A stretch of 64,000 nucleotides of DNA from Beroe forskalii (Eukaryota; Ctenophora; Nuda; Beroida; Beroidae), in assembly GCA_011033025.1 (NCBI GenBank), contig WFMF01000311.1:129835-193834 (forward strand), read 5' to 3'. Positions within the stretch are counted from its first letter, which is position 1; the number at the start of each line of letters is the position of its first letter. Below are positions 3,363-57,981 of this stretch, piece by piece. The notes beneath the pieces are model-generated. The model was not told the origin of the DNA and searched no databases. It saw only the letters and a program-made list of their open reading frames with translations. The translations under genes were made by a program, and so were the position numbers.

Positions 3363-3528
3363 ACAGTAAATACACACTTGGGTGTGTAGAATTACCGTAA
3401 TTGCACTCGCAAGCTCGTGCAATTACTCAATAAATGCACTCGCAAGCTCGTGCATTTATTGCATGAATTCCACTCGCAAGCTCGTGGAATTAATGTGGTA
3501 ATTACACACCCAAGTGTGTATTTACCGT
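3363..3528. mobile_element. nested-hairpin foldback element
   Basis: Outer inverted arms of about 32 bases (3363-3396 and 3497-3528; core ACACACTTGGGTGTGT) enclose three perfect or near-perfect hairpins at about 3397-3426, 3429-3460 and 3466-3492. All three hairpins share the core CACTCGCAAGCTCGTG but have different outer stems: TAATTG, AATAAATG and AATTC, each matched on the other side. No open frame. No clear target-site duplication, although TA-rich sequence flanks both ends. Confidence 0.85.
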
Positions 3529-3529
3529 A

Positions 3530-4983
3530 TATATATCATTAGCTCCGTGTTTTCAATCCTTTAAAGCAGTGGATACTGGACTCAGAATAATTGTTTGATA
3601 TAAACCATACCTGTTTGCAATTTCCAGTCAATTTCGTTGACGTGCTTAATATTAAAAGTTCCCTTCGAGTTGAAATTGATGCAACATGGTCACAAAATGC
3701 ACAGCATTCAGTTTAAGTTTTTCTCCTCGATGTTCCCGGCAACAGGGATAATAAATTTGCTTTAGGCATGCTGCATTCCCACCGACTATTTTAGGTTGAA
3801 CTTGTTACTAGAAATATCTGTGTTTTAATACAACTACAGTTTCATATACAAATTGCCTTCATCTAAAAATTATCGAATAGCTTGCACAGTCTCCGGGTAT
3901 TCATATATGAATGTCCGCAGACTGGTGAAAGTCTTTCTTCTTTCATGCAAACCTCTTGTCCTCCCTGAGGTTATATTATGTTTCCTCTTGAACGTACAGG
4001 ACATTGCTATTGAGACGAATGTGATTATACAGCCAAGATTTAGATTGATTCCGTAGTCCGGTGAGCTGTGCTTGATGGTCGGTTCTTCCGCCTCGTCTCT
4101 CACATAAAGACTAGCTTATATAACATCAAATTGGAAATTAAATAGTACTGTGTGAGCATCAATTGTCAAACGCAAGGAAACATTTCCAATAGACAGAGGG
4201 TATAAAGCCAACTTTCGTCGTAGTACTAATGAGTGTCTAAGTGCCTAACCATGGTGAACTCAGTGTAGCTCCTTGCTGTACGGCATGTTAAACAAGGAAT
4301 CGAAACTGAGGGGCTCCGTACATGACATTGCTATTGCGACGAATGTGATTATACAGCCAAGATTTAGATTTCACGACCCTTGGCCTCTGCACACAGCTTT
4401 TAACCAAACCCATATCTGACTCTATTATCCCTGTTCGGCTGACCACATCTACGACTCACAGCTATAAACCATGGTATTATATTTTGCCCCCTTCTGAAAA
4501 TTCTGGCTTCCTCACATTGATGGCTCCTTGTCACCTTTCTAACCCCTCCTCACTTGATTACCCCGGAATTTCTGTAACTCATGACATTTCTACTTTTCTA
4601 GTCCGTTTTAATTCCGTTCCTAACTTATCATTATAACAATAAATTTTTAGCATGGATAAATCTCAGTTTAACACGTGAACGACAACAGAGGACTCGTTGA
4701 ATGACTTAGTGGAGTGACAGAAGATCGTATGGTTAATGATAAGCAGGGGCCTAAAAAGTAAGAAGGTAATGACTTATTTGAATTTTGACTATTGAGAATT
4801 AACTGGTCAATATAGGAAGAAGTATGATACAGTATCTTTGATATGCTTGAAGTGGACCACCCTTGACCCTGCTAAGCTACCCAGACTGTCGCCCGGTGTG
4901 GGTTGAATTGATATTTTGGAAGAGGATGGGAACGCCCTTTAGTTTTAGGCCCCAGAGGATATAGAAAATCGAAAAGGACCCTA
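3530..4983. other. intergenic, with one duplicated segment
   Basis: A segment of about 45 bases ending in AGCCAAGATTTAGATT occurs at about 4000-4045 and again at 4322-4368, so an internal duplication has happened. No coding exon is supported. Confidence 0.5.
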
Positions 4984-5340
4984 GAGGGGTGCCACTGTCC
5001 CAAATGTCCCTAACTCAAAAAAGTGGATTGGGACAGGACAAATGGGACATTTGGGACAAATGAGACATTTGGGACAAATGACAATTGGGACGGAGAAAAT
5101 GGGACAATTGGGACAGAGAAAAGTGACTTCAACTGGTAAAATGGGACAATTGGGACAATGGGACAATTGGGACACATGAAACAGAAAAAAGGGACTTGAA
5201 AAGTGAATTGGGACAAGGAAAAATGTGACATTTGGGACAAATGTGACATTTGGGACAAACGGGACATTTGGGACAAATGTGAAATTTGGTACAAATGTGA
5301 CATTTTGGACAAATGTGACATTTGGGTGGAATATGACATT
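4984..5340. repeat. GGGACAATTGGGACA minisatellite with hairpin head
   Basis: The left end reads CACTGTCCCAAATGTCCC then a short spacer (AACTCAAAAAAGTGGATT) and GGGACAGGACAAATGGGACA, so it can fold on itself. It is followed by about 20 units of 12-18 bases of the type GGGACAATTGGGACAAATG. It shares its head with the termini of the element at 6602-8832 and with the array at 52340-52665. Confidence 0.85.
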
Positions 5341-5344
5341 AAAG

Positions 5345-6370
5345 ACTGAGATAAATGGGTCTCAAATGGTTGTGTTTGTGAGCAGCATTTAAGCATTATT
5401 TTCCTGACAACATATTATGATATGCTAGTAGAATGCCAATCAGCCTCCTTGGATGGCATGGCCTCTTCCACCAGGTACTCCCTCATTTTTTACTTTTTTA
5501 GTGGTGCCCCACTGGGGTTTTCGATCAAAAGATAATTCTATTTCTGTAAAACTATTTCTGTAATTTTCTTTAATTTCTTAACTTCTATTTATTTTTTAAA
5601 GAAAGTGTTACTTTGTTTTGATAGATTTTGGCAAGGATAGAACCCAAAGACCAAACAGTGTTCATTCAGGGCAGCTGTCCATTGATTTCAGCTCTAAGAG
5701 TGTAATATACTGTGCTGTTAATTTCATTATTAACTTGAAAATGGATTAATGCTACTTTATTTCCTTGTCCATAGCCATAATGAAACAATATTTCAATGAA
5801 ACAATATTTCAATATTTTACAACAGTACAGGCCAGCATTTGCACCATTGATTTTATCTCAATTAAAAGTGATTAGAACTTTAATCTAAAATTGCTAATGA
5901 AAGCCCTCTTAAATCATATTTAATTGATAAGAAACAACATATTATTGTGATTTAATAATTTAAAAATACTTAATATACATACATTGTGATCTATTTGTCT
6001 AATGTGTTGGCCAAAAGCCGATTGCAGAATAAAGAAAGTCACAAGTCAAAAACAGCAAGCACAAGCAATTGTGTATTTTTCATTTGATCAATTCATTTGA
6101 TTGAGGCAGAACAATGCAGCCAGAATCCTTTCATTTTCAAGGTTTTGCTCCTATTCCAACTTTCCAACCAAAGGATCCAAGTTATTAAGCCAGTGGTGGG
6201 CATTGGTAATATAAGGAAGTGTAATCTATACTTTACCTATTTTCCCAAGACTTCATTGCAATGGAAAGCTTCTTATTTAACCCTCCCACACATTTTTCTG
6301 TATGCTCGGCTGAGTGAACCATGTGGCTGCATAAGCTTGAGATACCAAGATATCTTTCACCCTTAGCTCA
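5345..6370. other. intergenic, nothing recognised
   Basis: AT-rich DNA. An 89-codon open frame at 6097-6366 (+) has no domain signature I recognise and ends at a repeat, so I do not call it a gene. Confidence 0.45.
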
Positions 6371-6371
6371 G

Positions 6372-6452
6372 TTGGAATGGTAGGGAATCAAACCCGGAAT
6401 CTTTTTGATCACAAGCCAGACTAGAAACCATTTCACCAACTGACTGCATTAA
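6372..6452 (-). mobile_element. tRNA-like SINE head
   Basis: On the minus strand an A-box-like AGTCAGTTGGTGAAATGG (plus positions 6428-6445) is followed about 35 bases later by a B-box-like CCGGGTTTGATTCC (6384-6397), the spacing of a tRNA promoter. The middle, AGTCTGGCTTGTGATCAAAAA, is shared with 51685-51705. A second, oppositely oriented A-box-like TAGCTCAGTTGG lies at 6364-6375. The acceptor stem does not pair well, so a SINE remnant is more likely than a working tRNA gene. Confidence 0.55.
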
Positions 6453-6601
6453 TCAAAGATCTTGGCACATTCTAACAAATTAAAATGAGGCACCAAAAAT
6501 GATATGGTGTAATGAAAGCTTACACTGTGACACTAGGCACACAGACTTGCCAATTTGGTTGAATGAATTTGAAAGGCACCCAATGCTACCCAAACCTTAA
6601 G

Positions 6602-8832
6602 AGGGGTGAATGGGGGGATGCACTGTCCCAATTGTCCCAAACTCATGAAAAAAGTGGATTGGGACAGGAACAATTGGGACAGATGGGACATTTGGGACAA
6701 ATGGGACAATTGAGACGAAAGTGACAGAGAGAACCGGGGGAGATTCAGGTACTAAGTTGCAGACACAGGGCCGACGATCCTGCATTTTGGCCTTTTTTTG
6801 AGTTGAGACCACCCACCTGTATTTTGGTACCTGGGTACTAAGTGGTTTTGGCATAAAAAATTAAGACACCCACCCTAAATTTAAGTTTTTGGAGCAGTTC
6901 CAGAATAGAAAATTTAATTCCAGACTCTGGTAGTACAAAGGAATCTGAAAAAGTGCTATTTGAGTATTTGATATTGAAATAGGCACAATTACAATAGTTT
7001 CAATCATCATACAACTGAACTCCTCATTTATTTTGTGCCAGGCAAAGTTGAAATTCGTGCCCACTGCCCTGCAAAATAACCTTGTGGGAAAACATCTTCC
7101 CACAGTTATAAGCAATTTTTTATGCTCTTTGGTATATTTTGGATTTATTTTGTCCATTGAAGGCTTACTCATAACCAATTGACCCAAGCTCTCCCTTCCA
7201 TTTCATTCCCTTCATTCCTTTTTTATAAAGCCCTAGCCCCTACATTTGGGTGCGTCGATTATTGTTGTTTTTTTGAGATAATCATGATGGTGGAATGTTT
7301 TTGTTGCTTCATCTGTAATCTGGTTCTAAAATGACTCTGGTAGCAGTTTTTGAGAACAAAACTGAAGTTTCATGGTTGAACCAGTCATATGATATTTTAG
7401 CACGTCATGCTTTTCCAAGTGAAGTTAGAGGTGATTCTTTATCTTTACCTACAATCTTTCGAAATAGAGGGTATTCCAGCTTGTTTTTAGCTCTGAAAAC
7501 CCTAACAGTATCCGAAAACTTTGATTGGGCCCAAGCCAAAAGCATAGAATCAAAATTTCGGATTTTGATCGCGTGACTTAGATCACATGATCATGAAAAT
7601 TAATAAAATGCGTTTTTTAATGTTTACATATTATGAACTTTAGATACTGCAATCGTTTTGTCAAAATATATAATAATTAATTTGCGACCTGATAGTGATG
7701 AAGTTAAATTTTCCATTTCGGCTAAGGGGACGAGAACGAAAATGCTTAATATGGTCACGTGACTAGCTAAGAATTGCCCTAAAATCGCCACTTTAATGAT
7801 TCCACTCGAAACTTTTGGATCTTTATCAAGGTTTCATAGCCATTTAGCACTTAGGTGTGTTGGTAAAGTACCTACGTCCTTACAGGATTTATGGGTGACT
7901 ACACCATGTTCGAAGTTTTGTGACCATCTTTGTAGCTTGCACAGCTCATTACACATTGAAAATGTAAGTTTCAATTCATGTGAGTACTCGCCATACGAAA
8001 GCACTAGGTATTCGTAAGAATGAGATATTACAGAATACAAATGTTCATTGTACAAACAAAATTGTTAAATGTTTACAGAATGTTTGGTGGCCAGGTAGCT
8101 CAGTCAGTCATTAATAAGCGTCGGATTTAGCAATCGAGAAGTTGCTGTTCCCGCTCATTCTAATTTTGTGCTAACGTGAGTGTTGTTTGGCTCCAAAATG
8201 TATCGCATTATCTAATTAATGTGTGATCAGGCAGAAAATTAAATTTTGGAGATGAATTTCCCGCAGTTTACGGGGAAAAGTAAATATTTCACACTCTGAT
8301 ACTACGAAATCAGTAGATATCGACGTATTTTAGTACCAAGGTACCAACTGATTTTTCAAATTCCAGCTGATGACCACGTATTTTAGTACCCAGGTACTAA
8401 ACGACATTCGAGGGAAAAATAGACCCACCCACCGGCCCTGTGTCTGCAACTTAGTACCCGAATCTCCCCCGAGAGAACTAGGGCTCAAATGATTTTGAGT
8501 GGCAGTTAAGTGTTTTTTGTCTCAGCCTGTTTCATTGCAGCACTTGAGCTGCATTGCAACTGCCACTGTCTTATTCCTATCATAAGTTTTAGGATAGGGA
8601 AGTGGGAACACTTAACGACTGCAAAAAAACACAACCAAAATATGTACCTAGTATAGTAGTATGAATATAACTTTCATTTCAATGATATATAAACTTGGAT
8701 CAATGTAAAAATGATAAATGTTTGTTTGTCCCAAATGTCCCAGTTGTCCCAATCGTCCAAAAAAACAGTCCCAAACTCAAAAAAGTAAATTGGGACAGGG
8801 ACAATTGGGACAGTGACACTCCACCCCCCCCA
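6602..8832. mobile_element. 2.2-kb foldback element with minisatellite arms
   Basis: The outer ends are inverted copies: GCACTGTCCCAATTGTCCC near 6622 matches the reverse complement of the segment ending near 8815. Inside these are further inverted pairs: 6730-6775 with 8428-8472 (GCAGACACAGGGCC and GGCCCTGTGTCTGC) and 6818-6845 with 8383-8408 (GGTACCTGGGTACTAA type). TAAG flanks both sides (6598-6601 and 8833-8836). The flanks rejoin into the dispersed repeat seen intact near 60800-60930, which acts as an empty site. The 1.5-kb centre (about 6870-8300) encodes no recognised transposase; a SINE-like head lies inside at 8086. Confidence 0.75.
8086..8160 (+). mobile_element. tRNA-like SINE head
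   Basis: GTAGCTCAGTCAGT (8095-8108) matches a tRNA A box, and GTTGCTGTTCCCGCTC (8141-8156) is a degraded B box at about the right distance. The stem pairing is poor, so this is a decayed tRNA-derived sequence within the foldback element. Confidence 0.45.
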
Positions 8833-8935: not shown

Positions 8936-9266
8936 AAACCCATTGAAACTTGGTAGTTATGTTATTGGGCATCAAACAAAAATTTTGATTGGACGGATTT
9001 TTGACTAAGGCATCAGAAGTAAAAATATGGTTTTTGAAAGTTGGCACCTGTCCTAACTCCAAAAAATGATATAATTAATGACAATATTCAAATTTCAAAA
9101 GCTTATATTGTCACTTCTGAGGCCTAATTCGAAAATCAGTCCAATCAAAAGTTATGTTTTATGCCCTTATGCCCTAGAACATACTATGTACTGATTTTTA
9201 ATAGTTTTCCTCTTAAAATGTAGATGACTTTTAAAGTTGATTCTCGGCAAAGCACATTAGAAGTTC

Positions 9267-11368
9267 ATAATAATAATAATAAAGCACACATTTTTAACCC
9301 GCTTAACCATAATTAAGAAACTTAATTCTCTAGGCATCTAAGCGGTAACTGTTAAGTGACATTTCGCATCCTTTTGGATCCTTTTCAAGAACATTGAATC
9401 ACAAATGAGCATTATGGTAACATAAAACATTAAATCTAGTAGAGTATGCATTTTTCTTCCAGAAAATTAAAATTCTAAGTCAATCATGTTTTGCACATCA
9501 TCAATATTGTCTGAAAAAGCACATCTGAAAAAGTATGTTTTCAATGCAATTTTGAAGGCTTCAATATCTGACATTGACCGTAAACGATAAGGAAGATTGT
9601 TCCATATCTCAGGAGCAGCCACACTGAATGCTCCAGAAGTCTTAATACGCTTAGGTATAGAAGGATGTTCTAGAAGATAGAAGTCATTGTCTGCTCTGAC
9701 AGAATGGGAATTGACTTGTCTGATGGATAAAAGGTTGGTCAAATAGCCAGGAGCAATGTTATTGATGCATCTGAAGGCCAGTAGTGCCACTTTATATTTG
9801 ATCCTAAAAGCTACTGGGAGGAAATGAAGCTTCTTTAAGAAAGGTGACATAGGCTGGAATCGCTCTTTCCCTTTAAGACCAAATATAAATTTTACAGCAG
9901 CATTCTGAATTTTTTGTAACTTTGCCAACTGTATATGTGAAAGGGCAAGGTAAGTGCTATTACAGTTGTCAATAAAAGAATGGATGCAAGAATGAACTAA
10001 TTGTATTTTCAAGTTCAATGACAGTTTACTCCCGATACGACCCAGCTTTCTTAAGTTTTCATAGCACGTTTGGGATACTTTTCTGATTTGGGTGTCAAGT
10101 GACAGGTGCTCATCAAACCAAAATCCAAGGTTCTTTGATTCCACAGATGGTGTAATTTCACATTGGGTGAGGAGGAAGGAATGTTGAGGTGGATATGGTG
10201 AGAAGGGAGAGTAAAACTCCATTATTTCAGTCTTTTCATCATTCATTTTGAGGTAATTGGCAGCCATCCATACTTTTATGTCATTAAAACACTTTTGAAG
10301 ATGATCCAGGTTTATTGAGAATCCAACTTTGGGACTGAATTCGAAATAAATCTGGGTATCATCAGCATAGAGATGTATTGAGAAGTTATACTTTTTGGCA
10401 AGATATTGAAGACCTTCTGTATAGAGGATGAAAAGTAAAGGACCAAGAATTGACCCCTGTGGGACACCAATATCAAGGGATTCTTTTTCAGATAAAGATC
10501 CATTGATATTGACTTGAAATGTTCGTTCTGATAAGTATGACCTCAGCCAGTCAATAATTATGCCACTGAAATTGTACACATCCTGAAGCCGTCTGATAAG
10601 ATACTGGTGATTGACAGTATCAAAGGCTGCTGATAAATCCAAAAGCATAAGACATACATGATTCTGTTTGTCCATTGCAATAAGAACATCATTATGTATC
10701 TTGATTACAGCTGTTTCACAGCTATGATCTTTCCTATATCCTGATTGGAGTTGAGGAAAAAGACCTTGTGTTGTGATGTGTTCAGTTATTTGCAAGTGTA
10801 CACATTTCTCAATTACTTTTGATAGAAATGAAAGATTGCTAACTGGTCTGTAGTTAGCAAGCACATCTGAGTCTAAGTTGTGTTTTTTGAGGAGAGGGCG
10901 AATGATGGCTGTCTTCATCTGCTCAGGGAAGCATCCAGTCTGAAGAGATATATTCACAATTTTGGTGATAAGAGGAAGAAGTTCATCTGTACAATTTTTC
11001 AAGATCCAAGTTGGAATAGGATCTAATGAACATGACTTTGTGCCCATGGTTTTAAGAACATCCTTTATATCAGATGGCAAAAGAAGTCTGAAATAACTGG
11101 CAGAGCTTTCAGTAGCATCCCCTGGTCTCAAGTTGTTTCCAGAATTACTATTACATTCAGATGACTCCGATATATCTGCATATATTTTACTAACTTTGTC
11201 TGAGAAGAAGTCTTTCAAGTTATTTGCAGTCTCAGTATCAGATGTACCTTTAGGAAGCTTTTTCTTGACAAATTCCTTGTCCAATAATGAGTTAATGATC
11301 CTGTATGTGGCCTTGGCATTACCTTTAGCATCTGACAGTTTTCCTGCGAAGTAATTATGTCTGGGCAT
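9267..11368 (-). mobile_element. CR1/L2-type LINE, 5'-truncated
   Basis: The 3' end is the (TAA)n run at 9267-9283, typical of CR1/L2-group elements that end in a short microsatellite instead of poly(A). The 5' end of homology is near 11368, just before the RT linker, so the endonuclease domain is missing. It abuts a second (TAA)n run at 11371-11396, which may be the tail of an older element on the same strand into which this one inserted. Confidence 0.85.
9467..11368 (-). CDS. LINE reverse transcriptase (family A), intact frame
   Basis: Open frame of about 633 residues from the linker to the stop; the 16 codons before it are read from the (TAA)n microsatellite and are not LINE protein. RT motifs are in order: NYRPVSNLSFLSK near residue 190, LDLSAAFDTVNH near 260, GVPQGSILGPLLF near 317 and the catalytic YADDTQIY near 350. 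The C-terminal thumb ends with EIWNNLPYRLRSM and FKIALKTYFF. No endonuclease domain is present. The frame has no stop or frameshift, unlike its relative at 33.4-35.3 kb, which suggests a younger copy. It copies LINE RNA into DNA at nicked targets; this truncated copy cannot do so by itself if the endonuclease is required. Confidence 0.9.
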   Translation of the reverse strand: MPRHNYFAGKLSDAKGNAKATYRIINSLLDKEFVKKKLPKGTSDTETANNLKDFFSDKVSKIYADISESSECNSNSGNNLRPGDATESSASYFRLLLPSDIKDVLKTMGTKSCSLDPIPTWILKNCTDELLPLITKIVNISLQTGCFPEQMKTAIIRPLLKKHNLDSDVLANYRPVSNLSFLSKVIEKCVHLQITEHITTQGLFPQLQSGYRKDHSCETAVIKIHNDVLIAMDKQNHVCLMLLDLSAAFDTVNHQYLIRRLQDVYNFSGIIIDWLRSYLSERTFQVNINGSLSEKESLDIGVPQGSILGPLLFILYTEGLQYLAKKYNFSIHLYADDTQIYFEFSPKVGFSINLDHLQKCFNDIKVWMAANYLKMNDEKTEIMEFYSPFSPYPPQHSFLLTQCEITPSVESKNLGFWFDEHLSLDTQIRKVSQTCYENLRKLGRIGSKLSLNLKIQLVHSCIHSFIDNCNSTYLALSHIQLAKLQKIQNAAVKFIFGLKGKERFQPMSPFLKKLHFLPVAFRIKYKVALLAFRCINNIAPGYLTNLLSIRQVNSHSVRADNDFYLLEHPSIPKRIKTSGAFSVAAPEIWNNLPYRLRSMSDIEAFKIALKTYFFRCAFSDNIDDVQNMIDLEF

Positions 11369-11370
11369 AC

Positions 11371-11396
11371 AATAATAATAATAATAATAATAATAA
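11371..11396. repeat. (AAT)n microsatellite
   Basis: About nine AAT units directly upstream of the LINE's truncated 5' end. Confidence 0.9.
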
Positions 11397-13459
11397 GTGC
11401 AATTTATACACCGCAATTAAGCTTCAAGCCTATACTCAGCAGTGTTCAATAATTTAAAAACTGATACTTAAGTTTCTAAAAAATGCTACGGAAAGATAAA
11501 AACCTACGAAATTAATTCGTTGTAAAAATGGATAAGGGAAAGCATTGGATAAATTAATTCCTAGAAATAAAAGCTTATAAAAACCCTACAACATAAAGCC
11601 AGATTCAAATAACTAAATTTGGAAATAAACAATTCGTTAGTTTAACATAATAGTTACTTGACAAAATAACTTGTACCCTCAAAAACTGATACATACTGAT
11701 TGAACTTATTTACAATTAAAACATGAAGAATAATATAAAAAACAAACATAAATAAAGTTGGATTGCAAAGCATGTTAATAACATAATTAAAAAACTGTCA
11801 ATAAATAATTCAGTAGGTCATAGATAAAACTACGACAATAACATAATAAATAATTTAAGTTACATTTAAAAACAATGTATTGCAATTAAAAACAGGCAAT
11901 AATAACAGGCAATCACACAATTTTAAGAAACTGTTCAAAAAAACTTTGGCTTGGAACATTTTTATGGGGTAGCTGGCATTCTCTACCCAGTGGAATAATA
12001 TGAGGAATGTTGGAGCAACAATCCCAGCCAAAATTTGTCCAAATCGAAGCAAAAAAGCCCATTTAGGTTGACAGAAACTTGATATTAATATTTGGCTATT
12101 TTACGCCGCGCAATTATTATCATGGTCTCAACTCGCTAGTTTTGATAAAGGAGCAATTTTCAAACTGCGTCAGAATCCAATCAACGCGCACAAAACGCGC
12201 ATCATTCATTCCTAAAAAAGCTACCAGGATCCTAATCTAGCCAAAATATTCCCAAACTAGCTGCCAGACTCCAAAAGTAGCCAGGGACTCCTAAAATCCG
12301 CTGCAAGGATTCCATTGCTTGTTTATACATCCAGGAACTCATTATATCAACTTTTTGTCGTGAAGCAGTGTTTTTGTGATTCATTGGAATGTGGGAACCT
12401 TATCAGCCATATGGCTCAATATGTTTTGAAATAATGTACTTAGCAAGGTTGACTTCGAGGTCCCTGTTTGGATAGTGAAATCCCTTATGACGCAAAAAGG
12501 CATTTTTGCTACTTTATGACTCCATGATAGTATAAATTATAATGAACGTGCAGCTCTTTGCATTATATCGCCCGAGTTCCAAGCTTAATTTAATGGATTG
12601 AGTAGTGTTGCGCGCGCTGACGCGCGCAAACACACTCACTAATAACATTACTTGCTTTGCATACGAAGTAACCTCCGCAGAACGGGTAGGCTACTCTCAG
12701 CCCAGGACATCTCCGGCAGTCGGGTGGCCTGAAAAACCACCCAGGAGTTCACACCCTTTGCCTAGTGTACTAGGGATAGTCTCCATGCTCAGCATGGCTG
12801 CCACCGGCCTGGTTGATTAAACCGACTGTGGCCGTTTTACTAAGACTAAGAACCTCCGCAGAACTTCCATCTTTGCCTGATACATACTAATGCGCGGCGC
12901 ATGTAGTGAAAAGAAAGTGATTTCACATTATTCCATTTGTATCTGTTATTTCGTAACGTCATCGTCTCATGTTGCCTAGTGAAGACATGTAATTCAACGC
13001 TATCGAGAATGAAATCATGACTGAAGTAGTCTTAGACACGCCGCTAGACAGAAAAAAAGCCGTTTTTCCCGCGAAATCCCCATTCCCAGCCACTTATAAA
13101 AATTATTCCACTGGGATTCTCTATCAATAAGAACTAAAACCCAAAAACTGACCTCAGATCCCCAACCTCCTTAATTATGTGACTTGTGAATATATGAGGT
13201 CATGGAAATACCTGATTTGTCCTGTATATTATTAAGTTATTAGATTATTGGAAAGTTAGTATGCTGATGTTAGATAAGTGACAATCTGTAATTATGTAGT
13301 GATTAGTGATACCATTCAGGTTGGGAAGCAAGATATGATGCAAATACTAGGAGATATTTCTTCATAAACCATTCTACACAAAAAACACAGTGGAATGATC
13401 CCAGGATTGCTATTTATGAGGAACAACAGCGAAAGGTCCCTAGAAAAATATCATGTTAA
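11397..13459. other. intergenic, old repeat remnants
   Basis: AT-rich to 12060, where the minus strand near 11855-12052 faintly resembles a LINE C-terminus but too weakly to call. A GCGCGCGCTGACGCGCGC hairpin lies at about 12609-12628. No exon upstream of the CUE gene could be confirmed. Confidence 0.4.
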
Positions 13460-13462
13460 TTA

Positions 13463-16357: not shown

Positions 16358-17141
16358 AGACTGAAGAAGCATTGTACATATAATGTACGATACAATGAGA
16401 TGACTGATGTACATAATTAAGTAATTATAATGGAGTAACTTTTAAGGTCAATTATTAGTACAAGTATTCATTCATTCATTCCAACCAAGTAACTTGATTA
16501 TCCAACAAAATATTGGCCTGCAAGTTTCAAGCATTCTCTAAAAAGCTGGATTCAGCAATGTTTCTGTTTCTTATTTAACTAAGGAAGGGAAATTTTTCAG
16601 AAATCATTATATGATAAAGGTTTTTATTTTGGAGATGGCACCGACTATCGGGATATTGATGTTTGATAGTTTGATCAAATCATCAAAGTCTGATAAAACA
16701 CTCAAAGAACATTAGTTCTACATTTCATTACTGCGTAGCGCCATAAATTTGACTGACATCAAGTGGAAATCTAAATACTGAATACAATACACCTCAGTTT
16801 CTGTTGGATTTTATCATTATACGTTGATAATTTTCTGGATTTTATACATGAAACATAATATATTATGAACTTGGTTAGTTAATTTCTTGTAATTTTGTAA
16901 ATACATTTTTCTTATTTTGAGTGGAACACTTTAATCTAAGTTTACAAGTTTATCATATTAAACATGCAATATAAAATGAAGCCAAATTGTAAACTTTCAT
17001 TTCATTTCATTTGTTGTACTAGCAATTGTTTTTTGAACCGCATTGAATTATTATCTATTCCTGCCTGTAACTAAATAACAGTACTCCCTCCCACACGCAG
17101 GTCTGGCGACCCTCGTTATGTTCAAGGTTTATATATAATAC
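16358..17141. other. 3' flank of the CUE gene, nothing else recognised
   Basis: AT-rich. No clear polyadenylation signal decides the transcript end. Confidence 0.4.
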
Positions 17142-21775: not shown

Positions 21776-22600
21776 AAAAGGTGGAACCACCCGAAACGAC
21801 CCGAAACCACCCGAAACCACCCAACCCACCCGAAACCACCCCCGAAACCACCCAACATAACTCCGAAACCACCCGAAACCACCCGAAACCACCCGAAACC
21901 ACCCGAAACCACCCGAAACCACCCGAAACCATCCGAAACCACCCAACCACGCGAAACCACCCAACCCACCCAACCCAGCCAACGGTGGGTTGGGTGGTTT
22001 CGGGTGATTTCGGGTGGTTTCGGGTCACTCACATTTAAGTAATATTTTGGGTCGTTTCGGGCTGGTTTCGGGCTGGTTTCGGGATGGTTTCGAAATTTTT
22101 GCATAAATTGGGGAACTTAAAACACCGAAACGACCCAAAACGACCCAACCCACCCGAAACCACCCAAAACCACCCGAAACCAAACCACACCCAAAATTCA
22201 TATTTTGGGTTGGTTCGTTGGGTTGGGTCGTTCCAAACAAAGGTAAAATTTTGGCTCGTTTCAAAATTTTTGCATAAATTGGGGAATTCTAACCACCAAA
22301 ATGACCCAAAACGACCCAACCCACCTGAAACTATCCAAAATCCATATTCTGGGTGGGTTCGGGTGGTTTCAGGTAGTTCAAATTTAAGTAAAATTTTGGT
22401 TCGTTTTGAGCTAGTTTCGAAATTTTTTGCGTAAATTGGGGTATTCAAACCACCTGAAACCAGCCGATTCCACACAAAATATGAATTATGCACTTTGTGC
22501 TGTTTCGTATGGTTTCGAAACAGCCCGAAACAACCCAAAACAACCCACAACAATCCGAAACCACCCAAACGATGAATTTTGGGTTATGGTGGACTGACGG
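21768..22600. repeat. GGTTTCGGGT foldback minisatellite, left copy
   Basis: 21781-21980 is about 19 copies of a 10-bp unit ACCCGAAACC (with ACCCAACCC variants). At about 21985 the strand flips and the unit reads GGTTTCGGGT to 22085. Beyond that a longer unit of about 155-180 bases repeats three times, marked by TTTTTGCATAAATTGGGG near 22097, 22268 and TTTTTTGCGTAAATTGGGG near 22420. The outer flank TTGATACTAAAAGGTGGAAC at 21768 is the reverse complement of the flank at 24847. Confidence 0.9.
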
Positions 22601-31382: not shown

Positions 31383-31384
31383 GT

Positions 31385-32425: not shown

Positions 32426-32449
32426 TGTACAGCTTATTGTTATATTCGT

Positions 32450-38198: not shown

Positions 38199-38206
38199 GC
38201 CCTGAC

Positions 38207-48100: not shown

Positions 48101-51100
48101 AGCATTCATTATATTGCAATACTTGCTGTTGAATAATACCTAAAAGTTTTCTTTCGTTCTGAAAAATTGTGTTTGATGTCTTATAATTCAGGTACAAAAT
48201 GTGAACCATATCTAAACATCCCAAGAAGTGGTAAGGCTTCTAATGTACCTCATTTCGGAGTTTCATTTGGCAATAGGTACTCCTAAAATCTCAACAGGTT
48301 TTAGATTAGGTATCATCATGTAAGTAGGGTGTCATAATTATTGGCGCGGCGCTATTTTTGCACGGAAATTCTGCCCAATTAGACATCTTGCAGTTGCCAT
48401 ATCTTCTGATTTATCAAATCCAGTGATCTTCATTTCATCCGAAAGAAAACACATTAATCTTGAACCCAGTACAAGTTTGAAGCTGTTCCTATCAATATTA
48501 GGAAGCGAGATACCTTATTACACGAAATTAAGAGATCTACTACTAAACGGGGGATGGATCTACAAGAGATCCAAACAGAGTCCCCGGCACGGGACCTTCT
48601 GCTCGGAGATCACTAAATTAAGGTGATCGACTCGAATTTCACCTTAATTTAGTGCTCCTTAATTTCTGCCCTTCTTATTTTCATTACACCCTCTTTCTGT
48701 AACCTTAATTTTTGACAACACATCCAATTTGTCACTAAGTATAGCTCTAAAAAGAATAGAACGATTCGAAATCTAAATTGAAATAAAGGATAAATTAAAT
48801 TTTCTTCTAATTCTTTTGCTGGTTCTGTGTTCTGATCAATTTCGATCAAATCATCGCAGCTTGAGACGTGAACCGTTTGATTCATCTTGACTTGATGTCT
48901 TACAATATCTCAATATTGATTTTGAGTGCGGCGGAAGGAGCGCTGTACAAGGCGGCAGCCGACGTCTGTGTGCGGAGTATCAGTAATTTGAAGCTGACTG
49001 CTGTCTCTCAGATACCAGATCATGAAAAAGATGCTAAGTTTGAGGACCCCAGAAATGGGGTCTTGTCCCATTGCTCATTTTCTGGGCATTTTAGAGCATA
49101 ATGATAATATGTGTTAACAATTCGTATATAAACAATATGATGATTTTGATTCATCTGAGCTATTGGAAATTCTTTTTTATTGAGTTATAACTCCAAAACA
49201 GAAGATCCCAGGGCTTCAGTACTGTTACCTACCCCCTATAATGTGTTGATTGTGGTCATTTTAAGGTGGTTGGATTGCTCTCAACTCCAAAAGGAACGAA
49301 AGTAACATTTTTCACAAGGCGCTTCCTCGCGAGTGACGTAAAATCATTTTTTGGGCTGTAACTCGAAAACGGAACGTCCTAGGGCTTTGGAACCATCATC
49401 CGCCTGGCATAATGTGTCCATTGCGGTCATTTTAAGGTGGAACATTTGTTCTCAACTCAAAATTGTCGACAAGTCACGTTAGCTTCCTTAGGGTCTTAAA
49501 TAACATATCCAGTTGCTAAATCGCTTTTAACATTCAAAGCCAACGGATTTCCATTTCACCCCTGACTATAGATAATGTAACAGTTATGTAAAACAGTAGA
49601 TCGTACATAATAGGAATTCATGATGCCTGAAAACTCAAGGTCTAAAATGGGTTATCAGTTGTGGTAGGGTGCTTAAGCACCACAAAGAATGTTGCATAAT
49701 ACACGGATTGATGTAACCTGAAACACCTACCCTTCCCTTGCAGTCAATCATCCAGACACTGTCTGCAGACACGGCAATTGATGTGGGGTAGATGTCTGAC
49801 ATGCCGCCCACCGACACCACTATCTCCAACCAGTCTGTGCCTGTTAATGAGGTTATCATTGCTACTTGAAACTATTCAAGTCAATTTGCTATCAATCATC
49901 GCATCTAAATTATTCTTTCTCGTTCAAGTGTACATACATAACATGGCAAATATACTTTTGCTTATTGCACAGAATTGCTCTCATTATAACCTCATAACGA
50001 GTGATAACAAGAAATGAGGCTCACACGATTTTCTCTCTGTCACTTATTCGAGTTATAGATGCTTTATCATGTCTCACCGTACAAGTTGTCACTGTCTCAC
50101 TTATTGGAGTTAGGTATTGATAGCATTATCATGTCTCACCGTACAAGTTGTCGCTGTCTCACTTATTCGGGTTAGGTATTGATAGCATTATCATGTCTCA
50201 CCGTACAAGTTGTCACTGTCAATGCCAGTCCGTGTGATGAGTTCCCCCTGAGTGGTGATTCCCCACAGCTGTCCCCGCGGACCCACACTTAACTTGGCTA
50301 TCTTGAAGTCTGGCTGACACACCTCCACCCAACTGGGAAAAGTCACGTGTTACAAGAGTATTCATAGTCGAAGTAAAATGCAGTTTGGAAATCAGCTCTT
50401 AGTATAATATCACATTTCGTGTTTATTTTTGTACGTCACGTCCCATGGCAAGTTCTGAAGAGCGCACGACATTTCTTACGATCCTATATTAGTAAGGTTG
50501 CTCATTTCACGTGAAAACTCGAGATGCCCGTCCTGTTCCCATTCTAATTCGTGTAAAATCTTCAAAATCACATTTTAGAGTAACGGTTCTTACTTAGATA
50601 TATTTTAAAAGTTTTAACTTACTCGTCTCCCTCTGGGTTTATTCCGCTGATGTTAGTCCGCACATAAACACGGCACTCCTTAGAAACCCCCCAAACACAA
50701 ACAGGCCAGCCCTCACCACCTGCACATAGTATCATAACACGTTGGGGCAGGGGTCAGGCAAACTTACTTGGGGGTGCGAAAATAGGGAGATTTTTCGTGA
50801 AATCCCCAAATTTCGTTCCACGTAAACATTTCTGGTTTGGTAATTATACGAGGCAGAAATCAATCTAATCAAACTATAACAGTATACTTAAGTACTAAGC
50901 AGCACTCTCAACACATCAATAGACTCAGTAACATTATACAATTCAGTATCCAAATAATAATCTAAAAAACAAGAAATCTACTTACCTGGTAACATAGTCC
51001 CACCCGCCGCCACGTCAAGAAACTTAATTTCACTTGGAATGTGAGCCCATGCTCCCATCTTATTGTACCTGAATGAGAAGTTATAGCTCCTTTGCAATTT

Positions 51101-54013
51101 GAGGATAGCAAATTTATCAAGCTTTCAGAAATCATATGGAATATTGGGCTATCTATATCTTTATCGAGATATACCTACGCGTGTGGCGATATTGGCCTAT
51201 ATAACTATTGTTATAACTGCAATGCTTCTAGCTCAAGACTCACTCGTAGTACTTTGCAAGTCGTTTGCGCCTGACGTAGGAAGTTCCTGTGTTCTGGAAG
51301 GAGAAAGCGGAGGTGAAGTTAGTAGCGTACTGCCAGCCGTCTTTGTCTGTGGGAACACCTTCTATGTTCCTATCCACACGCCTGTGGGTCAATGAGACAT
51401 GATAAACATATTATGCGTCACAGTGTCCTTTCCAGGGCCTCACTTTTATACTTTTATTCAGATATCAAATTTGCATCAACGCTCGATTAACCTTCTCAGC
51501 AATGATAATTCAGCCACTCGTACGCTAAGAATTTAATGATTTTTTTCGGGTCTGACGTTACCAATATTAGAACATTAATCTTGTAATTAGATGGCAGCAT
51601 ATATTTCTATTTCTATGTGCAATTATCAGGTTGGAATCAGAGTATCTATACACTATACAATTGTTAGCTGGCGTAATGGTAAAGAGTCTGGCTCGTGATA
51701 AAAATTACCTCTAGTCTAAAGAGCCACATTTCGAGATATAATAGTTAATGGGTAGCTACTCATTCCATCTTCGCTACAATGAGAAGCTACCCATTGCAGC
51801 AGAGATGGAATACACTTCCTTAATAACCGTCACTGGCTTAATAAAACTTGATTTCCTCAATTCCTTTCATTGGCCTCACAGCTATTGGAATAGAAGTAAA
51901 AACTTGTAAATGAAAAGTATGTATTATCTATAACATCTATATAGGTAATAAATTATGATAATATGTTTAGTCATATTAAATTTTTAACTTCACTACTTAG
52001 ATGTCATCTCCATTCGAGTACATGAAACTAACCAGACACTATCTGAGGCCCAATGCTGCGAGAGCTTTCTCTTGGGGACCCCATCTTCCCTGGCGACATT
52101 TTTCCATCCTCCCACCAAGTTCCACCTCTCCCACTCAAATTCATAGTCCTGCAGAGTGCAGGGCAGCGTAAAGATATTATACTGTTAAACAAGCAGTGTA
52201 GTTTGAGGTTACTTAGCCCACATTTCAATTTTTCTGCTGCTTCCGGAGGAAGGTTACTCAATCCATTTTACCAAGATACTGACTTCTAGTAAGTTCTTAG
52301 CCAATATGAGGGATATGTGAAATGTGAAATATGCTAATTGGCGAAACAGATAAAATGGGTATGTCCGTTTTGTCCTTTTTGTCCGATTTCCAAGGCAAAC
52401 AAATCAGGCACAACAGACAAATCGGACAAAACAGACAAATCGGACAAAACAGACAAATTAGACAAAACGGACATGTCCGTTTTGTCCTTTCTGTCTACTT
52501 TAAAAAAGCAGACAACGCGGACAAAGTGGAAAAACCAGACAAAACAGCCTGTCTGATTAGTCCGTTTTGTCTTATTGGTCAGTTTTTTATGTGTCAGGTG
52601 TCTCATTCTTACTTTTTTCAAATTTCTGGACAAAATGCTAAAACGGACAGTGACACCCCCTACAATAAAATAGTTACTATCATTTATACAGAAAATTTCA
52701 GGACATCAGTCTTAACATTTCACATGACTTTTAAGCGGGAAGATTACCTGGAATCTAATAGGCAAATCACACTCCTTCACAAATAGGTGGACATGGTATT
52801 CAAAGTCAACACCCCAGACACAAGTTGATGTAGCATCTATCATGTTGAAGGTGACTCCTGGTGGAGTATGGACTTGCCGCCAATTCTCCTGATAAATTGA
52901 AGCATGAAAATTTTATATGCTGAATACTGTGAGAATTGAATTGAAATGTATGCATTGGATATAAATAGAATTGTTGGACCCCGATATGTCATCTGTACCG
53001 ATATGTCACCCGAAGTGTAATCAGTATACCACGTTTTATTACTTCATGTATCCGACACACGACTAATTTGATTAACTACAGACACTACTTCAGGTGACAA
53101 ATCCGTGTGGCTTCAAAAAACTCAAACACCAGTTTGTCATCCTTGTACCGATTTGTCACTAGAAGTTGAAGTGAACCTCATATAATGAAATATACACTAT
53201 TGCATGGAAATTTCATGGAAGGTTTCCTCCTGCATTCCATGTTTGTGCCTGGATAGCATGATTCTTTATCGATCTTCATATCACAGAATAACATAGAGAT
53301 TAATTTAGGGTAACTTATGATAAAGATACCTTGCAATAGTGTAGGTATATTTTATTATATGAAGTTCACTTCAACTTCTAGTGACAAATCGGTACGAGGA
53401 TGACAAACTGGTGTTTGAGTTTTTTGAATCCGCACCGATTTGTCACCTGAAGTAGAGTCTGCAGCCAATCAAATTAGTCGTCTGTCGGCTACATGAAGTA
53501 AGAACACGTGGTATATTGATTACACTTCAAGTGACAAATCGGTACGCGTGACATATCGGGGTCTAACAACAATCAACTGCCAACACCTTGATGAAAGAAT
53601 CAAGATTCATTTGCCATATTGGCCCATATTCAACTAGCCCTCACCTTATAACTTTATCAGGACCAAAACAAAGGTTATTTCCACAGGGGTGGTTAAAAGG
53701 TTTGCTAAAGTAAAGCCAATTAAAATAGTAATTTAATGGCCAAGGTTGATTTAGGTCCAATGAAATTTTCAGAGTGTAAAATTTTTGATTTAATGACTGT
53801 TTAAAAAATGTCAAGAAGATTAGTTAATTAGTTAAAAAGGTTCAAAATGATTCAATATTTATCAATAAGGCCAGTTGAAAATGAGGTTGGCTGATTTACT
53901 ACTGAAATAAACAAACTTACATGTCTGTTCTTTGTTGCAATGTGAGAGAATCCTTTGCATCTCCATGGTATTGATCCACTATCAAGAGCCCATATGTCTT
54001 GACCAAGGATCAT
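38207..54013 (-). CDS. TECPR1: TECPR1-like tectonin/dysferlin-domain protein (C-terminal half not found)
   Basis: Twelve exons share one frame with GT/AG junctions, in order: 54013-53921, 52888-52748, 52148-52033, 51381-51244, 51068-50986, 50719-50623, 50332-50202, 49840-49731, 40770-40615, 39533-39443, 39170-38987, 38346-38207. They total 1480 bases, about 493 codons, ending in phase 1. Tectonin repeats (VWGVSKECRVYVRTNISGIN, QLWGITTQGELITRTGI, VWGLDKDNKIINRTDITPTQ) surround a dysferlin-type segment (DKDGWQYATNF...SYVRRKRL), the order found in TECPR1. In vertebrates TECPR1 is a lysosome/autophagosome tether and membrane-damage sensor; that role here is inferred. The vertebrate protein is about 1165 residues, so the PH domain and second propeller should lie to the left but were not found. 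Intron 8 is about 9 kb and carries another gene and two foldback elements. Confidence 0.85.
38741..38990. repeat. 27-bp minisatellite made of the exon 11 splice donor
   Basis: Nine units of AATAAAGCTATTGTCTGACC plus a C run of varying length. On the minus strand each unit reads GGGTCAGACAATAGCTTTAT; the unit nearest exon 11 is its actual exon/intron junction (CCCGG|GTCAGA). Confidence 0.92.
39443..40770 (-). CDS. TECPR1: TECPR1-like exons 9-10
   Basis: Exon 9 (40770-40615) completes the blade begun in exon 8: VFFHKGSEVHVHN, TSKWIHMILNPGEVIFFKSL, SCGPENQ. Exon 10 (39533-39443) continues directly with VWGLDKDNKIINRTDITPTQ and INGQSWQDIE. The match across a 9-kb intron in phase 0 is the strongest evidence that the two halves are one gene. 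Confidence 0.82.
39540..40610. other. TECPR1-like intron 9 contents
   Basis: Contains degenerate CCCTAA-like sequence at about 39765-39830, three 18-bp units of GGTGAAAAGAATCGTGA at 39845-39895, a GC-rich GCGCGGCGTGCGCGCGCG stretch near 39928, and a direct repeat GATGTTCGAGCTCAAAATTG at 40030 and 40494. Confidence 0.6.
40986..41452. repeat. dimeric repeat, left copy
   Basis: Two diverged tandem halves of about 190 bases, each with CTTTTGGAGTTGAGA...ACCTTAAAATGA.CGCAAT and ending near a CTGTTTTGGAGT or CCGTTTTCGAGT motif. The whole dimer is repeated in reverse at 49169-49551. Confidence 0.85.
41453..43687. mobile_element. foldback element with 21-bp minisatellite arms
   Basis: The left arm (41453-42460) is built of CATAACACACCCCTATCAACT units and the right arm (42470-43687) of the inverse, AGTTGATAGGGGTGTGTTATG. 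The tips match over at least 100 bases in reverse: TTTTATTAGCTTCAAGGCATAATA at 41453 (written here as one terminal motif in two parts: TTTTATTAGCTTC and AAGGCATAATA) against the end at 43687. It sits directly after the dimeric repeat. A short unrelated segment at 41825-41940 interrupts the left arm. The 21-bp unit is a multiple of three and so gives false repeat-protein frames (YELRGVC). Confidence 0.85.
41825..41881 (+). repeat. 57-bp direct repeat with 48541-48598
   Basis: ACTAAACGGGGGATGGATC followed by CAAGAGATCCAAACAGAGTC is found at both places in the same orientation with about five differences. Confidence 0.85.
43700..44150. repeat. ATATTCGCC repeat array
   Basis: At least 12 AATATTCGCC or ATTCGCCACAC motifs. 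The last part is three units of about 72 bases (AATATTTCGCCGTGTT...GGTAACACATT). It fills the gap between two foldback elements. Confidence 0.8.
44373..45742. mobile_element. foldback element with GGAGCCCGACTTAGTAT arms
   Basis: The tips TATTGGGTCGTTATAGCCC (44373) and AATAACGACCCATA (45727-45740) are inverse. The left arm carries GGAGCCCGACTTAGTAT-type units on the plus strand (44500-44850, 45385-45445); the right arm carries ATACTAAGTCGGGCTCCC units (45490-45700). The centre holds three strong hairpins: TCATTGTGGGAGC...GCTCCCACAATGA (about 44863-44910), GACTGAAATC-ATAAC-GATTTCAGTC (44909-44933) and TTAACCGGCC...AAGCCGGTTAA (45127-45183). No open frame. Confidence 0.8.
45745..46805. other. 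intron 8 spacer with a 56-bp tandem duplication
   Basis: 46443-46555 is two copies of TAATCAAAATAAAACATAAT-GTGTGGGG-type sequence. Near 46110-46200, GAATACTT and TACTTGCCGACT repeat several times. No gene seen. Confidence 0.6.
46810..47229 (+). promoter_or_regulatory. 5' flank of the nested gene, duplicated at 35.3-36.2 kb
   Basis: About 420 bases upstream of the ATG are conserved almost unchanged in the inverted copy at 35327-36162. It probably includes the promoter and 5' UTR; I see no clear TATA box at a usual distance. The call as promoter rests on position only. Confidence 0.4.
47230..48085 (+). CDS. secreted protein with two four-cysteine domains, nested gene
   Basis: Exons 47230-47382 and 47585-48085 (stop TAA) join in phase 0 across a 202-bp GTGAGG...TTCCAG intron, giving 217 residues. 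A signal peptide is clear (MFTMCVLLLVGTITFTVTSG). Residues about 23-107 and 127-215 are two copies of one domain: ECLKAAHNGLNFVWD matches QCLINGQSALGIPWD, GTCEDYMRQPL matches GSCEKYLTQPL, and ITCRYQFQYKEG matches LFCVYKFQYKGE. Each copy has four cysteines at like positions, so two disulfides per domain are likely. I do not recognise the family. The gene lies in intron 8 of the TECPR1-like gene on the opposite strand. Its promoter and first exon exist as a broken inverted copy at 35.3 kb. Secretion is inferred from the signal peptide; its function is unknown. Confidence 0.82.
48090..48540. other. 3' flank of the nested gene
   Basis: AT-rich, no further exon seen. Confidence 0.4.
48541..48598 (+). 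repeat. 57-bp direct repeat with 41825-41881
   Basis: Same ACTAAACGGGGGATGGATC core; flanks differ except for the following GATC-rich bases. It is followed by a hairpin (CACTAAATTAAGGTGA / TCACCTTAATTTAGTG, 48610-48655). Confidence 0.8.
49169..49551. repeat. dimeric repeat, right (inverted) copy
   Basis: Reverse complement of 40986-41452, lacking the roughly 60-base stretch at 41087-41150 of the left copy. Both copies lie in intron 8 of the TECPR1-like gene. Confidence 0.85.
49731..51381 (-). CDS. TECPR1: TECPR1-like exons 4-8
   Basis: Exon 4 (51381-51244) completes the dysferlin segment (GWQYATNF, VRRKRLAKYYE). Exons 5-8 (51068-50986, 50719-50623, 50332-50202, 49840-49731) encode tectonin blades: KMGAWAHIPSEIKFLDVAAG, GINPEGDEWVEVCQPDF, KLSVGPRGQLWGITTQGE and TDWLEIVVSVGG...SVWMIDCKGR. 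Phases are 2, 1, 2, 1, 0 and all agree. Confidence 0.88.
50060..50222. repeat. 62-bp repeat carrying the exon 7 splice donor, three copies
   Basis: CATGTCTCACCGTACAAGTT recurs with 62-base spacing. On the minus strand each copy reads AACTTGTACG then GTGAGAC, so the true donor (GT at 50201-50200) is repeated at 50139-50138 and 50077-50076 inside the intron. Using a downstream copy would add 62 or 124 bases and change the frame. Confidence 0.9.
51663..51720 (+). mobile_element. tRNA-like SINE head, partial
   Basis: TTAGCTGGCGTAATGGTA resembles an A box and AGTCTGGCTCGTGATAAAAA matches the middle of the minus-strand element at 6372-6452. No B box is left. Confidence 0.4.
52033..52888 (-). CDS. 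TECPR1: TECPR1-like exons 2-3
   Basis: Exon 2 (52888-52748) has TSTCVWGVDFEYHVHLFV and ends LPIRFQ; exon 3 (52148-52033) has YEFEWERWNLVGGW and ends SQHWASDSVW across the next splice. The spacing of W-x-W-type motifs matches the start of the dysferlin domain in TECPR1. The intron between holds the GACAAATCGGAC array. Confidence 0.85.
52340..52665. repeat. GACAAATCGGACAAAACA array with inverse tips
   Basis: Starts ATGTCCGTTTTGTCC and ends AAAACGGACAGTGACACCCC. The end shares GGACAGTGACAC and a C run with the right tip of the element at 6602-8832. Internal units of 18 bases (ACAGACAAATCGGACAAA) run on one strand and TGTCCGTTTTGTC on the other. It lies in intron 2 of the TECPR1-like gene. Confidence 0.8.
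52977..53566. mobile_element. 590-bp palindrome, foldback element
   Basis: Arms 52977-53213 and 53330-53566 are inverse copies over about 235 bases with few differences; the loop is about 115 bases. The tips read GGACCCCGATATGTCA and TGACATATCGGGGTCT. Each arm contains GTGACAAATCGGTAC-type motifs three times. No open frame and no certain target duplication. It lies in intron 1 of the TECPR1-like gene. Confidence 0.88.
53570..53920. other. intron 1 remainder
   Basis: AT-rich, nothing else recognised. Confidence 0.4.
53921..54013 (-). CDS. TECPR1: TECPR1-like exon 1
   Basis: 31 codons from ATG at 54013 (MILGQDIWALDSGSI) to a GTAAGT donor. An upstream ATG at 54020 is out of frame. IWALDS fits the start of the first tectonin blade, and the phase matches exon 2. 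This is the least certain of the 12 exons because it is short. Confidence 0.6.
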
Positions 54014-54765: not shown

Positions 54766-54769
54766 TGTG

Positions 54770-56695: not shown

Positions 56696-56738
56696 GACGT
56701 TGCCCCGTCTATTTCTTCTGACTGGATGACCGGGCGAG

Positions 56739-56810
56739 GTTGCAAAGTGACGTCCAAATGTGGAACGTTGCGCCGCGCGCGAGGGTAGGGTAACTATAAC
56801 ATCCTACCAT
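56739..56810. repeat. solo arm of the TAGGATGTTACCC MITE
   Basis: CAAAGTGACGTCCAAATGTG through GAGGGTAGGGTAAC matches the right arm of the element at 56884-57060; ACTATA is inserted before ACATCCTAC. Confidence 0.8.
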
Positions 56811-56883
56811 GAATGTACCACACAATACAACTAAACATTCAAGTTAAAAGGGTAAACACCTGTGTAAGTTTTTCAGTTACAGT

Positions 56884-57060
56884 CGTAGGATGTTACCCTA
56901 CCCTCGCGCGCGCGGCGCAACGTTCCACATTTGGACGTCACTTTGCGCCAACAACAAGTCAGAAGAAAGGGACGGACATCGCCCGTCGAAGTTACAGTTG
57001 CAAAGTGACGTCCAAATGTGGAACGTTGCGCCGCGCGCGAGGGTAGGGTAACATCCTACG
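56884..57060. mobile_element. 177-bp MITE with 5-bp target duplication
   Basis: Arms of about 64 bases are inverse and nearly identical (CGTAGGATGTTACCCTACCC at the tip, then a CGCGCG-rich stretch and GTTCCACATTTGGACGTCAC). The loop is about 50 bases. ACAGT flanks both sides (56879-56883 and 57061-57065). No coding capacity. Confidence 0.92.
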
Positions 57061-57375
57061 ACAGTTGATCAATGATTCAATACCAAGTGAACAATTGACT
57101 ATATCTACTACTACTATTGACTATATCAATCTTGACATGATCTTGAATTGCCTGCGGAGTAAATTGGACATGGAGATGAGTGGATTGATATTATTCATAA
57201 ATTCAATGTTATAGCTGAAGTGGCCACTGGCCAGAATGCCACATTGCCACCTCTCTTGCACGAGAGTCTTTTTTGCGAGCGGCGTCGGATTTACTAAATT
57301 ATTTTTGTTCTAACCAGATCCATAATTTTACGCAACGCGCGCCGCCGCGCCGCGCTTTCACTTTCAGCTTTGCTT

Positions 57376-57575
57376 CGTAGGATGTTACCCTACCCTCGCG
57401 CGCCCGGCGCAACGTTCCACATTTAATTTGGACGTTGTAGGATGTTACCCTACCCTCCGCCGCGCACGCAAGGTTTTCCGCGGGGAGTATGCAACACGAC
57501 CCTCCAAACCTCCGAGTGTTGCGCGCAGGGATGGGAGAAATCCATCAAATTTGGACGTCACTTTGCGCCCGTCGA
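57376..57575. repeat. further TAGGATGTTACCC arm copies
   Basis: Two arms in the plus orientation start at 57376 and 57436; the second runs on into a partial copy ending TTTGGACGTCACTTTGCGCC at about 57569. They sit in a CpG-rich stretch. Confidence 0.75.
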
Positions 57576-57701
57576 CGCCTTGCTCCAACGACGCGACGCC
57601 TCTGGTTAGAAGAAGCTTCCCTGCCCTAACTGGCCTGGGGTCCTGATTGAGCGCACAGAGTGCGCACTGCGCGGCGCGGCAAGCGCTAATCGACACCTTC
57701 C

Positions 57702-57981
57702 TAAGCCCGCATAGGTTTGTGTACGCGCGTGGCGCTCCTGTTCTGAGGAAGCGCGCCGCGCAATGCAAACAGGAATATACGTGTTTAGCAAATCGGGTCA
57801 GTCATCCATATAAACGGGAGCCTTCATTATCTATGACAATGACGTCACTCAAAAAATATAATTAAGCGCATCTAGCGCTTTAAGCAGTATTGCTAAACAC
57901 GTATATCCCTGTGTGGCTCGCGCGGCGCGCTTCCCCAGCACAGGGGAAGCGCGCGGCGCGTACACACACCTATGCGGGCTT
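57702..57981. mobile_element. 280-bp inverted-repeat element
   Basis: GCCCGCATAGGTTTGTGTAC (57702) pairs with GTACACACACCTATGCGGGC (57961-57980), and ATATACGTGTTTAGCAA (57773) pairs with TTGCTAAACACGTATAT (57891). GC-rich segments with GGAAGCGCGC lie in both arms. Confidence 0.75.

Follow-up and report, generated by a model that had tools for sequence, protein, structure and literature searches.

The 64,000-nucleotide stretch of DNA from the ctenophore Beroe forskalii analysed here (positions 129,835 to 193,834 of contig WFMF01000311.1, hereafter the window) belongs to a 216-Mb assembly of 1134 contigs and carries a series of inverted structures, E1 to E11 (Table 1), which an initial annotation had described as a cluster of foldback elements with minisatellite arms. 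Inverted structures were detected by comparing the window with its own minus strand, a cluster being defined by an E-value of at most 1e-10 and a spacing of under 4 kb between the arms, and the definition was applied to positions 1-60000; tandem arrays were detected with Tandem Repeats Finder (TRF). The control was a single dinucleotide shuffle per 10-kb piece, and 20 pieces of 10 kb from other contigs (>=430 kb), taken at round positions in a draw that was not strictly random, served as the comparison sample. The window contains 11 clusters in 60 kb, versus none in the shuffled pieces, while the other contigs contain 21 in 200 kb, and the difference in density is not significant (p = 0.14). 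A genome-wide absence of such structures, which the initial annotation had named as the observation that would speak against it, is therefore not what is found, and the 200 kb from other contigs also rejects a local hot spot.

In 4 of the 11 clusters of the window (E1, E4, E5 and E6) and in 8 of the 21 on other contigs, over 30% of the arm sequence lies in TRF arrays; similar structures on the other contigs lie, for example, at L004:3382-4040, L007:261-421, L008:4156-5215, L010:3640-5684 and L014:1-851 (L-numbers denote fetched genome pieces, C-numbers contigs of the assembly). Tandem arrays hold 59% of the arm bases in the other-contig sample and 62% in the window, versus 10% and 6% of the remaining bases, respectively, which bears on minisatellites, but the association is partly trivial because palindromic units match themselves inverted. 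The arrays detected by TRF have units of 10 bp in E4, 21 bp in E6 and 9/18 bp in E2 and E8, and repeat lags of 12/20/32/44 bp in E5; those of E7 are weaker, and E3, E10 and E11 have inverted arms with no tandem unit. Across the families the unit lengths are 9, 10, 12, 16, 18 and 21 bp, and helical phasing was rejected as a general rule, since units of 9, 12, 16 and 18 bp exist alongside those of 10 and 21 bp.

The inverted structures are real and lie at or near the places first named, but the number of tandem arms, the extents and the diversity of the units need correction. The earlier figure of at least five elements with antiparallel tandem arms was generous: the pattern is clear in E4 and E6, whereas the unit is palindromic in E5, the signal is weak in E7 and the motifs are spaced in E9. 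Among the extents, E4 is followed by an array reaching 25542, E6 lies within an interrupted transposon, and E1 forms one end of a longer repeated element. Only E4, E5, E6 and E9 are delimited, and all statements on target site duplications (TSDs) and on lineages are restricted to these four; for them the assignment to foldback transposons was right, as they have dispersed copies, fixed tips and TSDs.

Table 1. Inverted elements and accompanying arrays of the window, with window coordinates.
Feature	Position	Strand	Basis or remark
E1, three hairpins, CACTCGCAAGCTCGTG-type palindromes	3361-3533		Outer end of a longer repeated element, repeated part back to at least 2070
E2, 9/18-bp GGACAAATGGGACATTTG units forming arms (4993-5340, 6613-6726, 8725-8821)	4993-8821		TRF and self-comparison
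Imperfect palindrome, no tandem unit	8967-9166		Self-comparison and cluster count
E3, inverted ends CTAGCAGGCCCG, arms 18144-18272 and 19238-19369, no tandem unit	17141-19541		Self-comparison
E4 transposon, arms of 10-bp units (AACCACCCGA), tip (CG)TTGATACTAAAAGGTGG	21766-24870		10-bp TSD family
Extra array of E4-type units past the right tip	24976-25542	-	TRF and self-comparison
E5, non-autonomous Merlin, arms of palindromic CCGGCTAGCCGG units, tip GGCAGTCTTGAACTATTCCGACACG	37351-38201		First three bases of left tip changed; 8-bp TSD family
Transposon carrying E6, tip TAGTCAGGGRTGAA, 3-bp TSD TAG	40958-49568		Interruption of ~5.5 kb at 43689-49169
E6, 21-bp minisatellite, alternating orientation (+, -, +, -)	41464-43687		TRF and self-comparison
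E7, weak inverted arms, degenerate 18-25-bp units, inside the E6 interruption	44463-45700		TRF and self-comparison
E8, 9/18-bp GGACAAAACAG units, right tip TGTCACTGTCC as in E2	52361-52656		TRF
E9, 597-bp foldback with tip TGTTRGACCCCGATATGTCA and four copies of motif CCGATTTGTCAC in either arm	52972-53568		5-bp TSD family; AGAAT/ACAAT in the window
E10, GC-rich stretch repeated in both inverted and direct orientation, no tandem unit	56756-57424		Self-comparison
E11, GC-rich inverted arms within or next to a very abundant element	57697-57981		Self-comparison

Tips, target site duplications and arms of the delimited elements

The tip sequence of E4, TTGATACTAAAAGGTGG, has 157 exact occurrences in the genome, and its reversed control has none. 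Among 100 of these 157 occurrences, 25 pairs face inward within 10 kb (median 3569 bp) and none face outward. All ten pairs that were fetched have a perfect TSD of 10 bp outside CGTTGATACTAAAAGG, one of them with TG for CG at one end, and this size falls in the 8-11-bp range of Mutator/Phantom. The arms are antiparallel, as a share of 0.69 of the left-arm 10-mers recurs in the reverse complement of the right arm and 0.00 in the right arm as is, so that E4 has the foldback-type architecture of long inverted arms with tandem units in opposite directions. In the best 40 of 394 candidates scored (window included), the left arm is matched at 82-100% identity, in some copies partially; since these copies have it in common, the arrays are mostly inherited with the element.

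In case of E5, GGCAGTCTTGAACTATTCCGACACG occurs 87 times with at most one mismatch (control 0), and the tip GGCAGTC provides the terminal 5'-GG of Merlin at these places, the left tip in the window being altered. The tips form 29 inward pairs spanning 96 to 7654 bp. Nineteen of the copies examined have both tips, and 11 of them (9 distinct sites) are flanked by an exact TSD of 8 bp, in agreement with the 8 or 9 bp of Merlin, 3 by one with a single mismatch and 5 by none. Moreover, 6 of the 35 matches to PF12762 in the whole genome lie inside the 29 pairs, versus 0.0075 expected under uniform placement, and one piece of the copy on C720 matches this domain with E = 1.1e-8. The domains enclosed by the longer copies outside the window are, as predicted from their sequence, of the IS1016/IS1595-type DDE transposase that characterizes Merlin; the earlier statement that the elements lack coding capacity therefore applies to the copies in the window and not to these longer ones. 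The 10-mers of the left arm recur with a share of 0.71 in the reverse complement of the right arm and 0.55 in the right arm as is, and unit direction is meaningless here because the unit itself is palindromic. Three copies, on C187, C324 and C714, have the same flanks and TSD and lengths of 132, 132 and 96 bp; on the assumption that all three stem from a single insertion by duplication, their array has changed since the insertion. In addition, two copies on C492 (L030 and L035) have a common left flank and different right flanks, as recombination between copies would give. The palindromic arrays of L008:4156-5215 are unrelated in sequence to those of E5 and have identical repeat lags of 12/20/32/44 bp, and just outside E5 there is a 26-bp array with C-runs, CCCCCCCAAATAAAGCTATTGTCTGA, of about 9 copies (window 38748-38988).

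The left end of the transposon carrying E6, TAGTCAGGG, is common to six of the seven other copies fetched, the seventh being truncated. Its 3-bp TSDs are CTG, TAA, TAT and TTG, with TAG in the window (5 of 5 readable); a sixth copy, on C187, has no readable tips. Like E4, E6 has long inverted arms with tandem units in opposite directions, with shares of 0.56 of the left-arm 10-mers in the reverse complement of the right arm and 0.00 in the right arm as is. For E7, inside the interruption of E6, the antiparallel signal is weak (0.08 and 0.00, respectively). Elsewhere, the E6 unit covers about 7.6 kb at C2:462360-469987 in two opposite directions. The interruption itself holds a 58-bp array with ATATTCGCC motifs just within its left border (43898-44138), one member (46811-47281) of an inverted pair that is 97-98% identical to the other member at 35281-36161, about 11 kb away, and open frames with a signal-peptide-like start at 47209-48085, the longest of which has no Pfam match. 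One open frame, scanned from those of at least 65 amino acids listed in 43662-49166, gave no Pfam match.

E9 has at least 47 matches in the genome (best 40 of 109 candidates scored), and its tips occur 50 times with at most one mismatch (control 0). Among 14 copies examined, 12 have both tips (the left tip is unreadable in L023 and L061), and in L025, with two candidate left tips, the outer one yields the TSD; the TSD of 5 bp is exact in 7 of them (6 distinct sites), has one mismatch in 3 (the window copy included, and two with common flanks) and is absent from 2. The 12-bp motif CCGATTTGTCAC (<=2 mismatches) is present four times in each arm, with copies in either arm starting 9 and 26 bp away from the tip, among other positions, and none of 500 shuffles contained it more than once. 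Homogenisation of the two arms of one copy was not seen in the four copies compared, in which the arms are 0.90-0.97 alike within a copy and 0.92 (same side) or 0.93 (opposite side) alike on average between copies.

Other elements and neighbouring sequences

E1 is rejected as a stand-alone foldback, as the conserved sequence extends beyond its hairpins: the best 40 of 324 candidates scored (window included) are 96-100% identical, the left side is still conserved in the fetched copies, and window 2070-3533 matches a copy on C355. The longer element has at least 40 copies; the flanks of E1 are TA-rich and its TSD is unreadable. E2 and E8 have the tip TGTCACTGTCC and GGACAAA-type units in common, at odds with the earlier view that the units differ in every element, and may be two branches of one family. 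The E10/E11 query gave 4359 first-look candidates in the genome, and in other copies of the abundant element at E11 the segments 57795-57889 and 57978-58140 adjoin. This very abundant inverted element, seen at window 57795-58140 and at L004:662-1174, carries GACGTCACTC close to either end, and its interior holds TTAGGG-like repeats.

The window also contains several different frames for reverse transcriptases of long interspersed nuclear elements (9467-11416, 26962-28911, 30339-32458, 33406-35342 and 59383-60603), one of them with an endonuclease domain, as well as a Laminin-G/EGF frame (61819-62592) and a 19-bp minisatellite, CCACCTGCTATGTCTGTAG, of about 53 copies (1-1008) that continues into the window edge.

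Origin of the inverted arms

It is established that the size of the TSD depends on the transposase (PMC4079207). Thus, TSDs of 3, 5, 8 and 10 bp together with unrelated tips indicate at least four unrelated transposase lineages, and since the motifs of E9 are spaced and not arrayed, the lineages with tandem-array arms are three (E4, E5 and E6). Fixed tips, dispersal, four TSD sizes, a Merlin transposase domain in one family and length variants at one insertion site are direct observations. Considering them, we regard it as likely that the window is an ordinary stretch of a genome throughout which DNA transposons of several unrelated families are scattered, for the most part as non-autonomous copies, and that in each delimited family a short motif has been repeated inside the terminal inverted repeats (TIRs), with the units acting as extra binding sites for the transposase. 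The two arms mirror each other because the motif is repeated inside the TIRs. By analogy with Galileo, whose transposase domain binds repeats in the long arms (PMC3688188), the units within the arms are predicted to be additional transposase-binding sites, whose number may rise or fall through slippage, through unequal exchange or when one hairpin-forming arm is copied from the other.

Several observations weigh against this reading. The array of E6 begins about 500 bp from the transposon end, far for a binding site, and among the best 40 of 599 candidates the E6 unit forms long arrays elsewhere too, many of them unidirectional, which match only from the start of the array. E9 has four spaced motif copies per arm and not a true tandem array. 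The window copy of E4 has no TSD, its left CG is replaced by TA and an extra array follows it to 25542, while 5 of the 19 E5 copies with both tips, including that in the window, have no recognisable TSD; the three E5 loci at one site may have arisen when a larger segment was duplicated, as we have assumed. Furthermore, the transposases of E6 and E9 were not found (no genome search aimed at them was made), nor was that of E4: none of the 46 matches to the transposase of Mutator-like elements (PF10551) lies in the 25 pairs obtained from 100 of the 157 tips.

A different explanation, which we consider doubtful but the most serious of the alternatives, is a genome-wide habit of repair or replication (hairpin template switching, or abortive gap repair after excision) that makes inverted minisatellites of any transposon ends, the units having no role in transposition. 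It would account for units that are unrelated among families and have so many lengths, for E5 copies at one site that differ in array length, and for the E6 unit in long arrays away from its transposon ends. However, E4 copies are alike in their left arm, with arrays mostly inherited, at least in the best 40 of 394 scored, and the E9 motif, which in either arm lies 9 and 26 bp away from the tip, is placed like a binding site; in addition, arms within one of the four E9 copies are no more alike than across copies, which argues against frequent copying between arms. A large diversified foldback family, one of the two origins proposed in the initial annotation, could explain the common plan, the tip and unit type in common between E2 and E8, and the presence of TTAGACCCC near the tip in both L008 and E9, but it is very unlikely, and for E4, E5, E6 and E9 it is not supported, given four sizes of TSD, unrelated tips and a Merlin transposase in one family (the only family tested). 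The other origin proposed, a process peculiar to the region, agrees with the nominally higher density in the window and is nonetheless highly improbable: the density elsewhere does not differ significantly (p = 0.14), every element searched (E1, E4, E5, E6, E9 and E10/E11) is dispersed, and the arrays travel with the elements. Just as implausible is an artefact, either misassembled palindromes or arrays that match themselves inverted without being foldbacks, as palindromic units in E5, L004, L007 and L014 (self reverse-complement 8-mer share 0.29-0.63) do inflate the link between arrays and inverted repeats, but the units run in opposite directions in E4, E6, L010 and L016, and misassembly cannot yield dispersed copies with exact TSDs.

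Beyond the preferred reading, that of repeated motifs inside the TIRs of unrelated transposons, we tentatively suggest, as an idea that is on balance unlikely, a lineage-wide tendency, in the repair machinery or in selection on transposon ends, which has independently made inverted minisatellites of the ends in at least three transposase lineages (Merlin, the 3-bp-TSD and the 10-bp-TSD lineages) and probably in more. If so, these families would be natural replicates for the origin of foldback arms. The families offer many copies, exact TSDs and, in the Merlin family, copy sizes that run from 96 bp up to 7.6 kb, and comparison of units, tips and copies could separate arm growth driven by the need for transposase binding from slippage of hairpin-prone ends.

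Comparison with known foldback and Merlin elements

According to published work, foldback structures have originated within several superfamilies, and convergence may be the reason (PMC3573991, PMC3169594, PMC4079207 and PMC3688188). The architecture is thus known, and in the present genome it seems to have had more than one origin; the convergence has so far been argued from scattered examples in different species, whereas the present families are unrelated and lie within a single genome. Galileo of Drosophila, from the P superfamily, resembles them in its long TIRs with internal tandem repeats, its many copies consisting of two arms only and its very variable arm length (PMC3688188 and PMC3573991). 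In contrast, its TSD is 7 bp (PMC3573991), a size found in none of the four families with 3, 5, 8 and 10 bp, and the F subfamily in D. mojavensis has units of about 210 bp, compared with 10-21 bp here. Foldback, Phantom, Tm1 and Tetris, mostly of the Mutator superfamily, have composite inverted repeats, short tandem motifs (about 14 bp in Tm1) and TSDs of 8-10 bp (PMC3169594 and PMC4079207), and E4, with its TSD of 10 bp, is like them. However, the listed E4 pairs contain no Mutator transposase, and the TSD sizes of E5, E6 and E9 differ from theirs.

Two features look new: several foldback lineages coexist within a single genome, and a Merlin element has foldback arms. In the open-licence literature, no paper on the latter was found, and one review names Merlin and foldback once each. 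As given in excerpts of PMC8101967, the features of Merlin are a terminal GG, a TSD of 8-9 bp and an IS1595-type DDE domain, all of which are present in the E5 family. Some Merlin families are reported to have internal tandem repeats, but these are not described as foldback arms in those excerpts, whereas in E5 about 200 bp of palindromic units stand at either end.

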